Below, piece after piece: positions 10,848 through 14,302 of a DNA stretch of 40,573 nucleotides (positions are counted from its first letter, which is position 1; the number at the start of each line of letters is the position of its first letter). The notes beneath the pieces are model-generated. The model was not told the origin of the DNA. It saw only the letters and a program-made list of their open reading frames with translations, and did no database searches. The position numbers and the translations under genes were made by a program. The DNA comes from Bacillota bacterium (GTDB taxonomy: Bacteria; Bacillota; Negativicutes; Sporomusales; CTSoil-080): positions 1 to 40,573 of the forward strand of contig JAGGAD010000030.1 in assembly GCA_017889625.1 (NCBI GenBank), written 5' to 3'.

Positions 10848-11705
10848 ATGGGTGTTAGAGTTATGGTTGTAGATGATTCTACTTTTTCTAGGGCGGTAAT
10901 TGCAGATGCGCTAGCGGAAGGTGGCTATGAAGTTGTTGGTGAGGCTGAGTCTATTGATTCATTGATAAAAATATACGATGAGTGCAAACCTGACGTTGTT
11001 ACTATGGACATAGCCATGCCTGGAGCTGATGGGTTTGAATGCAGTAAAGCTCTTATTATGCATGATCCCAAAGCTAAAGTTGTGTTGGTAAGTTCGATGA
11101 AGGATGAGGAGACCGAACAGGAGGCTAAGCGTGTCGGGATAGTGGGATATGTCCAAAAACCTGTAGATGCAGAGTCATTAGTAAAGATAATTAACAATGT
11201 TATGGCACCAGATTCTATGTATAAAAATTTAGAGCATTCGGCAGTAGATATTTTTAAAGAAGCATTAGCCCAAAGCATTACCCGGATGACTAAAACCACG
11301 GCTGAATTTGAGGATGGAACTGTGGGCAATCAGGCCGTTTCTCAAGGAATTACAGTAGTGATTGGAATTATTGGGAAATATTCAGGAAACATGATTTTTG
11401 ATTTAGCTGTTGACACGGCAGATAAAATGGCTAAGGTTATTTTGCGGCGCGAAGCAAAAAACCGGGAAGAAGTAGTTTCCTTAGTTGCTGAATTTGCTAA
11501 TGTCGTTGGTGGTGTAGCATGCTCGATGCTGAACAAGAAAGAAAAGGCCTTTGGACTTAGAGTGGCTCCGCCGAGTGTTTTTTATGGTGAAGCAACTGAA
11601 GTTGTAAGTCCTAACATCCAATGCCAAAACGTATTTGCGGAAACTGATTTTGGACGCATGGCACTGAGCGTGGGCTTTAAGAAGGGGTCAGTACTATGGA
11701 TGTAA
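10848..11705 (+). CDS. Response regulator: CheY receiver fused to CheX-like phosphatase domain
   Basis: The 285-residue protein has a receiver domain (about 3-118) with the acidic pair Asp9/Asp10, phosphoacceptor Asp54 in VVTMDIAMP, Ser82/Ser83 and Lys104 in QKP. A CheX/CheC-type domain follows (about 130-285). Its helix LVAEFANVVGG gives the E-x-x-N catalytic pair as Glu215 and Asn218. CheX-type enzymes dephosphorylate CheY-P, so the fusion may switch itself off or act on the CheY encoded at 13049. AAAGGAGG precedes ATG 10848. The next gene, a stand-alone CheX, starts inside the last 10 bases. Confidence 0.9.
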   Translation: MGVRVMVVDDSTFSRAVIADALAEGGYEVVGEAESIDSLIKIYDECKPDVVTMDIAMPGADGFECSKALIMHDPKAKVVLVSSMKDEETEQEAKRVGIVGYVQKPVDAESLVKIINNVMAPDSMYKNLEHSAVDIFKEALAQSITRMTKTTAEFEDGTVGNQAVSQGITVVIGIIGKYSGNMIFDLAVDTADKMAKVILRREAKNREEVVSLVAEFANVVGGVACSMLNKKEKAFGLRVAPPSVFYGEATEVVSPNIQCQNVFAETDFGRMALSVGFKKGSVLWM

Positions 11706-12157
11706 ATTCGATAAATCCTATTTTAGATGCTTTTGTTAATATATTGCCACAATTAGGATTTAAAACTATAGAAAAAAAAGCGGTGAAAGTGGCCGAATCC
11801 AGTTTGCGGAGTTCGGGTCTAATTGTTAATATTGGTGTTATGGGACCGCTTAAAGGGGCAATATTAATTGGGATGGACACTGATTCAGCTAAGAAGTTTG
11901 CCTCAAAAATGATGATGGGTATGGAAGTTGCTGAGCTTGATAGCTTGGCGCAGAGCGCGATTTCCGAAATGGGAAATATGGTCTGCGCTAATGCCTGCAC
12001 TAATTTTAGTCAGTCAGGTATGGGTGGACTGGATATTTCGCCACCGACACTGTTAATTGGTAAAGATGCAACAATTAAGTTGTCAGTGCCTAAAGTAATT
12101 GGTGTTACTTTTGTAGTTGATGGTATCACAATCGACGTATATGTAGGATTATTTTAG
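11696..12157 (+). CDS. cheX: Chemotaxis phosphatase CheX
   Basis: A 153-residue CheX of normal length. MGPLKGAILIGMD and the helix AISEMGNMVCANA carry Glu91 and Asn94, the E-x-x-N phosphatase pair. A second segment, GLDISPPTLLIGKD (about 111-124), is also typical of CheX. In the family this protein removes phosphate from CheY-P and resets the flagellar switch. It overlaps the upstream CheY-CheX gene by 10 bases, which suggests translational coupling and linked stoichiometry. GAAGGGGTC lies before ATG 11696. It is followed 10 bases later by a TPR gene. Confidence 0.9.
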   Translation: MDVNSINPILDAFVNILPQLGFKTIEKKAVKVAESSLRSSGLIVNIGVMGPLKGAILIGMDTDSAKKFASKMMMGMEVAELDSLAQSAISEMGNMVCANACTNFSQSGMGGLDISPPTLLIGKDATIKLSVPKVIGVTFVVDGITIDVYVGLF

Positions 12158-12167
12158 AAGCTCTCCG

Positions 12168-12737
12168 ATGTTAAAAGTAGTAAGTTTTGCCGCTGAAACT
12201 GCTTCTCTTAGCAAAACGGATAAACAAATTGCAGAACTGACAAAAGCCATAGAACAAAAGCCAGATGACTCGACATTATATTATAGTCGAGGGGTAGCGT
12301 ATTATAATAAAAATCGCTTTGAAGAGGCAATTAAAGATTTGACTAGAGTAGTTGAGGTTAAGACCAGCGATGCTAATGCCTACTTATGGCGCGGTTTATC
12401 GTATAATAGATTAGGACAAGAGGAACTAGCCTTGAACGATTATAGTCAAGCTGTAATCTGTAATCCTTTTCTAGAAGAGGCTTATTACAATCGGGCGGCT
12501 ATTTTTGCTAAGCGTGAACAATATGAATTAGCATTAGGTGACTGTGAACGAGCTATACAGAATAATCCTAATAATGCCAATAGCTATCTTATTCAAGCGA
12601 ATATATATGAAAACAATCATTTATATCAAGAAGCGATTGTTACTTATAAAAAATTACTGGCAAACGTTATGCTTCAAGATAGTGAAGCGATAAAAATTGC
12701 TAAAGAGCATATTCGAGTGCTTGGGAGCACTCTTTAA
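12168..12737 (+). CDS. Tetratricopeptide repeat protein
   Basis: The 189-residue protein is almost entirely TPRs. About four full 34-residue repeats run from residue 35 to 170, each with the pattern A/G-x-x-Y and a following E/L-A-I/L (YYSRGVAYYNKNRFEEAIKD, YLWRGLSYNRLGQEELALND and similar). There is no signal peptide or membrane segment, so it should be a cytoplasmic scaffold. It sits 10 bases after cheX and ends at a strong hairpin, so it is cotranscribed with the CheX proteins. Only a poor ribosome site precedes ATG 12168; coupling to cheX may help. The partner is unknown. Confidence 0.85.
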   Translation: MLKVVSFAAETASLSKTDKQIAELTKAIEQKPDDSTLYYSRGVAYYNKNRFEEAIKDLTRVVEVKTSDANAYLWRGLSYNRLGQEELALNDYSQAVICNPFLEEAYYNRAAIFAKREQYELALGDCERAIQNNPNNANSYLIQANIYENNHLYQEAIVTYKKLLANVMLQDSEAIKIAKEHIRVLGSTL

Positions 12738-13048: not shown

Positions 13049-13411
13049 TTGAAAAAAATGGATATTTTAATCTGCGATGACTCTATGTTGGTACGCAAGA
13101 AACTAAAAGACTTGCTAGAAAAACTAGAATGCCAGGTTTGGGAAGCACGCAATGGGGAAGCGGGTTTTGAGATATACCAACAGGTAAATCCCCACATAGT
13201 ATTCATGGATATCGTAATGCCGAAGATAGGTGGGTTAGAAGCTTTAAAAATGATAAAAGACTATGATCCGAAAGCTAAAGTAATAATGCTTTCGTCTACC
13301 GGAACAGCAACAAAGCTAACGGAAGCAATAAAATGTGGTGCGGTTGACTTTATACAGAAACCGTATGACGATGAACAAATTCGTTGCGTACTCGCGAAAT
13401 TTTCCGGATAA
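13049..13411 (+). CDS. Single-domain response regulator, CheY-like
   Basis: The 120-residue protein is one receiver domain. MDILICDDSMLVRKKLKDLL holds the acidic pair at about residues 10-11, HIVFMDIVMP the phosphoacceptor Asp near 54, LSSTG the conserved Ser/Thr, and FIQKPYD the conserved Lys near 105. It has no output domain, as in CheY or Spo0F. TTG 13049 is the preferred start because AAGGGGGG lies about 10 bases upstream; ATG 13058 would be 19 bases away. It is 12 bases before a CheX-domain gene, which makes it the likely phosphatase substrate. Whether it acts on the flagellar motor is inferred. Confidence 0.9.
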   Translation: MKKMDILICDDSMLVRKKLKDLLEKLECQVWEARNGEAGFEIYQQVNPHIVFMDIVMPKIGGLEALKMIKDYDPKAKVIMLSSTGTATKLTEAIKCGAVDFIQKPYDDEQIRCVLAKFSG

Positions 13412-13423
13412 GGGTGTGGTGGA

Positions 13424-14302
13424 GTGTATAATCAGTATTTTGGTCAATATTTATTAAATAAAGAGCTACTATCGGCTGAACAATTACGGGATATCTTAAA
13501 TCGGGAGCGATTGACTCGTCCTAGACTAGGTCTGCTTGCGATAGACGCTGGATTATTAACGGTAGCACAAGTGGAAAAAATTCATAGTTTGCAGCATGCT
13601 ATGGATAAAAAGTTCGGTGAAATTGCGGTGGAAAAAAATTTTTTAACTATCAAGCAAGTTGAAGATTTATTGATAACCCAGCGAGGAAGACGGCTAAAAT
13701 TAAGCCAGGCAATAGTTGATGCTGGATATCTCAGTTTGTCACGCTTAGAAGCGGTCTGGGAGCAATATAAAGCTGAGACTAATTTAGCTGATGGGAAAAT
13801 TGATACCCTTTACGGAAATCTTGATAATATTGTCCGTGCGGTTGTTGATTTTTCGTCAGCAGGTACTAAAGCAAAGCTGCTTTATGAATACATAGCGCTG
13901 ATGCTCCGAATAATTCCCCGCTTTTTCGATGAAGAACCAATCCTAACGCTTAGCAATGAAAAAGTGCAAGGTACACTTATTTCCCAGACTATGACCGGTG
14001 TAATAAGTATATCTACCGGAGTGATAATGAATGATGAGTTGTTATTGGAAATGGCTAAACGTTATAGTGGTGAAGAACTTATTGAAGTAAATGAATTAGC
14101 GCTAGACAGTATTGCGGAATTTCTGAATGAAACTAACGGAATCTTTACGGTAAATATGTCTGAATCTGGGTTCGAGTTAAACTTAGAGCCGCAGGAAGTT
14201 CAGGGCGATGTATTGCCGAGTCCACGGGCATATCGTATCCCTATTGAAATATCGTGTGGCACGATTGACCTATTCATTTGCATTGGTGATAAAATAATTT
14301 AG
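13424..14302 (+). CDS. MshEN-like tandem repeat domain fused to CheX-like phosphatase domain
   Basis: The 292-residue protein has two parts. Residues 6-121 are four tandem repeats of exactly 29 residues (6-34, 35-63, 64-92, 93-121). Each has hydrophobic-G-x-x-(hydrophobic)2, then a G/N-hydrophobic-L/S turn and a helix. The second fits the MshEN c-di-GMP-binding motif best, with Arg34-Leu35-Gly36, Gly43-Leu-Leu and Gln57. Residues of about 130-290 form a CheX-type domain with Glu232 and Asn235 in AEFLNET (E-x-x-N). Start GTG 13424 has AGGGTG upstream. It follows the CheY-like gene by 12 bases. Ligand binding is inferred from pattern only. Confidence 0.8.
   Translation: MYNQYFGQYLLNKELLSAEQLRDILNRERLTRPRLGLLAIDAGLLTVAQVEKIHSLQHAMDKKFGEIAVEKNFLTIKQVEDLLITQRGRRLKLSQAIVDAGYLSLSRLEAVWEQYKAETNLADGKIDTLYGNLDNIVRAVVDFSSAGTKAKLLYEYIALMLRIIPRFFDEEPILTLSNEKVQGTLISQTMTGVISISTGVIMNDELLLEMAKRYSGEELIEVNELALDSIAEFLNETNGIFTVNMSESGFELNLEPQEVQGDVLPSPRAYRIPIEISCGTIDLFICIGDKII

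Follow-up and report, generated by a model that had tools for sequence, protein, structure and literature searches.

c-di-GMP controls chemotaxis at the motor through YcgR. Control by c-di-GMP is also known at the receptor methyltransferase, where it is exerted through MapZ (PMC6370697). Among the domains that bind this nucleotide, MshEN has been characterized in MshE, in which Gly, through its backbone, and Gln, through its side chain, make the polar contacts to the ligand. The isolated N-subdomain of MshE binds c-di-GMP with a KD of 0.35 uM, and MshEN binds cGAMP weakly (PMC5013675). The GSPII-B domain of PilF, which has Lys at motif position 1, shows a higher affinity for c-di-GMP, and an extended consensus allows R, K or L at position 1 of both motifs (PMC11731258). 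On the side of phosphate removal, an acidic and an amide residue are the catalytic requirements of the CheC/CheX/FliY family (PMC3035606). MshEN together with CheX, among other domains, was named in one sentence of the text of Wang et al. 2016 (PMC5013675). Our literature search found neither an experimental study of an MshEN-CheX protein nor any tested example in which c-di-GMP acts on the dephosphorylation of CheY-P.

Here we describe a gene of this kind, found in a 40,573-nucleotide stretch of DNA from a Bacillota bacterium (hereafter, the window). The open reading frame has a GTG start at its first position and a stop codon at its end, and the AlphaFold model of its product has a mean pLDDT of 88.9. 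The features of the gene and of the CheY gene before it are listed in Table 1.

Table 1. Positions in the window of the CheY gene, the MshEN-CheX gene and the parts of the encoded protein
Feature	Position	Strand	Basis
Single-domain CheY response regulator, presumed substrate	13049..13411	+	Pfam Response_reg, 98.5 bits
MshEN-type repeat array fused to CheX, 292 aa	13424..14302	+	ORF, family of full-length relatives, AlphaFold model
Repeat unit 1, residues 5-28, YFG...E28, degenerate c-di-GMP half-motif	13436..13507	+	
Repeat unit 2, residues 34-57, RLG...Q57, equivalent to MshE motif I; G36/Q57 invariant (86 relatives)	13523..13594	+	
Repeat unit 3, residues 63-86, KFG...Q86, equivalent to MshE motif II; G65/Q86 invariant (86 relatives)	13610..13681	+	
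Repeat unit 4, residues 92-115, KLS...Y115, degenerate	13697..13768	+	
Linker, residues 121-143, pLDDT <50 at 124-130	13784..13852	+	AlphaFold model
CheX phosphatase domain (predicted), residues 144-289	13853..14290	+	Fold match, invariant E/N, T. maritima CheX alignment
Predicted catalytic E232	14117..14119	+	Alignment to T. maritima CheX
Predicted catalytic N235	14126..14128	+	Alignment to T. maritima CheX

The repeat array and the CheX domain

We analyzed the periodicity of the target protein by BLOSUM62 autocorrelation, in which lags 29 and 58 scored far above every other lag; the lag-29 score was reached by none of 20,000 shuffles. The N-terminal part divides into four gap-free units of 29 residues, starting at residues 5, 34, 63 and 92 and spanning residues 5-120, a stretch that is free of insertions and deletions in all 86 relatives. 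Therefore, the 29-residue periodicity is real and under constraint, and the initial annotation, which had described four exact tandem units of this length, was right on this point. It had also correctly read unit 2 as R34-L35-G36 with G43 and Q57, and units 3 and 4 do have Lys in place of Arg (positions 63 and 92), as it stated. Its reading needed some correction: only units 2 and 3 of the target combine the ligand-type Gly with the terminal Gln, and units 1 and 4 do not have both. Unit 1 starts with Y-F-G and ends with E28, a position occupied by Gln in about half of the relatives; unit 3 starts with K-F-G and has N72 in place of Gly; and unit 4 has Ser94 in place of Gly and ends with Tyr115. 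No unit of the target protein fits the relaxed c-di-GMP pattern of Wang et al. Three further residues are without counterpart in the MshEN consensus, namely the nearly invariant H54 (13583-13585 in the window) and the invariant D61 (13604-13606) and Q95 (13706-13708), of which D61 sits in a linker that is non-conserved in MshE.

The relationship to MshEN that had been proposed for this part of the protein was recovered both by profile comparison and by structure prediction. The target scored 50.6 bits against a cut-off of 38, in two matched stretches, with the NCBIfam model NF053729 (c-di-GMP_motif, "MshE-related c-di-GMP-binding"), which was also matched at E <= 0.001 by 86/86 aligned relatives. 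When the first family profile was compared with PDB sequences, MshE (5htl) ranked top with an E-value of 1.3e-6; with the profile from a larger alignment, PilF came first and MshE second. Among the adjacent pairs of units, units 2 and 3 gave the best score against MshE. In the AlphaFold model, residues 32-89 superpose in exact register on residues 7-64 of c-di-GMP-bound MshE (Z 10.9-11.5, 1.5-1.7 Å), with R34, G36, Q57, K63, G65 and Q86 at the places of R9, G11, Q32, R38, G40 and Q61 of MshE, and units 2 and 3 of this predicted model superpose in exact register on c-di-GMP-bound PilF GSPII-B as well. The predicted model has the four-helix bundle fold of 5htl over residues 32-89, and the two 24-residue motifs and 5-residue spacer of MshEN_N are present with an exact 29-residue period. 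Thus, the structural similarity to MshEN on which the initial annotation had staked its reading is found in the predicted repeat pair. The Pfam MshEN model PF05157 gave no match at the target locus, and its one match in the same genome is at another locus. PF05157 appears to cover the C-terminal subdomain of MshEN, as it aligns after the repeats in a glycosyltransferase relative (L107, see below), and its non-match at the target is consistent with the absence of this subdomain. Two weak Pfam matches located on the repeats, FumaraseC_C and DUF4388, were below the cut-off in the target and were rejected.

The contact residues themselves are strongly conserved. G36, Q57, G65 and Q86 never vary in the 86-member alignment; residues 5-115 contain only seven invariant columns, and these four are among them (P 6e-6), whereas the equivalent positions of units 1 and 4 vary among the relatives. 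Motif position 1, which is R34 in unit 2 and K63 in unit 3 of the target, is Lys or Arg in 66/67 and 62/67 non-redundant relatives, respectively. Lys in place of Arg does not argue against binding, because Lys gives the higher affinity in PilF GSPII-B (PMC11731258). The pocket on the Gua2 side (L35/V79/L83) is close to the three-Leu cluster of MshE. On the Gua1 side, the pocket consists of V50, H54 and F64 where MshE has three leucines, and His54 occurs in 62 of the 67 non-redundant relatives. In XpsE, which has lost binding, the position equivalent to H54 carries the change L29R, among many others (PMC5013675).

The initial annotation had also placed a CheX-type domain with Glu232 and Asn235 after the repeats. 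This was confirmed by the modelled C-terminal fold, which matches T. maritima CheX (1squ) with a Z of 17.4 and the B. burgdorferi CheX-CheY-BeF3 complex (3hzh) with a Z of 17.3, and by the alignment of E232 and N235 with the E-x-x-N of T. maritima CheX, despite a Pfam CheX score of 20 bits that lies below the gathering cut-off of 27; a paralog in the same genome scores 30.8, above this cut-off. Identity to the solved CheX structures is 15-22%, and both E232 and N235 are invariant in 86/86 relatives.

The CheY gene, related loci and genome distribution

The CheY gene ends 12 nt upstream of the target ORF and encodes an acidic pocket (D10/D11), a phospho-acceptor (D54), S82 and K104. We searched contigs for relatives; a single-protein query gave no confirmed match, but an alignment query succeeded, and full-length relatives were found across Bacillota. 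A CheY gene lies directly upstream in 79/80 fetched loci across the phylum at a spacing of -8 to 82 nt, with an 8-nt overlap between the two genes at 20 of the 80. D10, D11, D54 and K104 are conserved in all 80 CheY proteins and S82 in 79 of them. Since the wider gene neighbourhoods differ between loci, the CheY and MshEN-CheX pair behaves as a unit. The sole relative without an upstream CheY (L028; locus L110, G024:C72, 3677-4642, minus strand) is preceded by a carboxylase-like gene.

We also examined the surroundings of the pair. Upstream in the window, a REC-CheX fusion is encoded at 10848-11705, a stand-alone CheX at 11696-12157 and a TPR protein at 12168-12737, so that three CheX-type domains and two receivers lie within 3.5 kb, the target included. 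This block is shared by only one other locus (L025) among the 80. A lone CheW gene is found at 743-1222, beside metabolic and regulator genes. No c-di-GMP riboswitch was found upstream of the target in the window or at eight other loci, and promoter and terminator scans gave only background-level signal.

The paralog in the same genome (L106) stands in an apparent operon (G000:C87, 3408-8000, minus strand) with CheY and a 1094-aa CheA-like HAMP-Hpt-HATPase kinase, which shows a weak CheX-like match at its C-terminus. An MCP-like gene and CheW are found nearby on the other strand. The same kinase type occurs at five other loci, and its position beside the paralog points to a likely phosphate source in that subgroup. 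Several other relatives were also observed. At one locus (L108, G276, 1367-2381), the gene after CheY encodes a CheX-type protein of 222 aa in which no MshEN repeats are recognisable, and G054 and G337 match only in the C-terminal part; proteins of the L108 type look as if they had naturally lost the sensor array. Two carrier genomes have second, more divergent copies (G373:C17:46525-47247 and G541:C10:24030-24893; E 1.5e-31 and 5.5e-38), which possibly belong to another subfamily. The same profile also found a protein in which MshEN-type repeats are joined to a family 2 glycosyltransferase of the NfrB/BgsA-like type (L107, 493-2727, minus strand).

Next to the locus data, we analyzed the co-occurrence of the gene with c-di-GMP and chemosensory genes. 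Because a phylum-wide sample was near saturation (GGDEF in 297/318 genomes, FliG in 266/318), we turned to the family of a Ruminococcus carrier, in which motility varies, with 198 genomes (31 carriers and 167 non-carriers). In counts that ignore kinship and completeness, GGDEF was found in 31/31 carriers and 116/167 non-carriers (Fisher p 7e-5), CheW in 29/31 and 43/167 (p 6e-13), and FliG in 22/31 and 47/167 (p 9e-6). The nine carriers without a FliG match all have CheW. Therefore, a chemosensory rather than strictly flagellar role is indicated for the gene, and a strictly flagellar role was rejected. The genome from which the window derives has at least 10 GGDEF domains, as well as FliG and CheW domains.

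Proposed mechanism and alternative explanations

The two folds, the conserved contact and catalytic residues, the linkage to CheY and the co-occurrence with GGDEF and chemosensory genes were all established computationally. From them we infer nucleotide binding, phosphatase activity, the substrate and, as pure inference, the coupling of c-di-GMP to the phosphatase; taken together, and in agreement with the initial annotation, we consider it probable that the target is a CheY-P phosphatase controlled by c-di-GMP, in a two-gene cassette with CheY. In such a mechanism, the main site at which the four-unit helical array binds c-di-GMP would lie between units 2 and 3, and binding would shift the array relative to the CheX domain via the low-confidence part of the linker (residues 124-130). 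This shift may alter either how well CheY-P reaches E232/N235 or how the CheX domains are arranged, and the rate of phosphate removal from the CheY encoded just upstream would then change with c-di-GMP. We propose more tentatively, with a little under an even chance in our estimate, that in a Bacillota-wide cassette of these two genes c-di-GMP directly determines how long CheY-P lasts, through the His/Phe pocket, including in genomes with CheW in which no FliG was found. If this is true, the cassette would tie together, within a single enzyme, the two main decision systems of bacteria, and would do so in bacilli, clostridia and Sporomusa-type bacteria alike.

We also considered the possibility that the array descends from MshEN, binds no nucleotide and acts as a docking or dimerisation module that places the CheX phosphatase near CheY or the chemosensory array. 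This seems unlikely to us, although several observations point to it: the Gua1 pocket differs from that of MshE, the motif is degenerate in units 1 and 4, some relatives of the same class keep CheY and CheX without recognisable repeats, and loss of binding is known for MshEN domains of the XpsE type (PMC5013675). However, XpsE has lost contact residues of this kind (PMC5013675), whereas all 86 relatives keep the c-di-GMP-contact Gly and Gln of units 2 and 3, and the corresponding positions of units 1 and 4 do vary. The presence of GGDEF genes in every carrier of the sampled family also speaks against an array that binds no nucleotide. It is likewise conceivable that c-di-GMP is bound and that the CheX domain is a reader or sink of CheY-P rather than a phosphatase, since this domain is divergent from the solved CheX structures and binding of CheY-P without catalysis is known for some members of the FliM/FliN/CheC superfamily. 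We regard this as improbable, because the catalytic Glu and Asn that phosphatases of the CheX family need (PMC3035606) do not vary in any of the relatives.

A different ligand, such as 3',3'-cGAMP, sensed with a modified first-guanine pocket, would agree with the conserved His and Phe that stand in place of Leu in one pocket but not in the other and with the weak binding of cGAMP by MshEN (PMC5013675). Yet both half-sites retain the Gln and the Gly that makes backbone contacts, and the GGDEF co-occurrence does not favour another ligand; we therefore give this explanation only a slight chance.

Comparison with known systems

Compared with the MshEN (GSPII) domains of V. cholerae MshE and T. thermophilus PilF, the target has in common the 24-residue motif and 5-residue spacer, the fold and register over residues 32-89, and the contact Gly and Gln and basic first residue in units 2 and 3. 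It differs in having four units instead of two, no C-terminal subdomain or ATPase, His and Phe in the first guanine pocket, and Phe at position 2 of motif II. In the NfrB/BgsA-type glycosyltransferases, of which L107 is an example, MshEN-type repeats also precede an effector, but that effector is a glycosyltransferase. With CheX of T. maritima (1squ/1xko) and B. burgdorferi (3hzh), the target shares the whole-domain fold (Z 16-17) and a single E-x-x-N active site, and it differs from them in the N-terminal sensor array, an identity of only about 15-22% and the fixed upstream CheY gene.

The same domain pair is found in the MshEN-CheX proteins of Wang et al. 2016 (PMC5013675, Supplementary Table 4), to which the target can be likened by name only; the main text of that paper gives no function, partner, pocket detail or distribution for them. 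The pairing has thus already been recorded and is not new. The new elements are the conserved cassette with CheY, its distribution, an array of four units that lacks the MshEN C-terminal subdomain, the His/Phe-modified guanine pocket and the kinase-linked paralog. Finally, MapZ, a PilZ adaptor of P. aeruginosa, also brings c-di-GMP input into chemotaxis signalling, but it acts on the receptor methyltransferase CheR1 and not on CheY-P removal (PMC6370697), the step at which we suggest that the MshEN-CheX protein would act.
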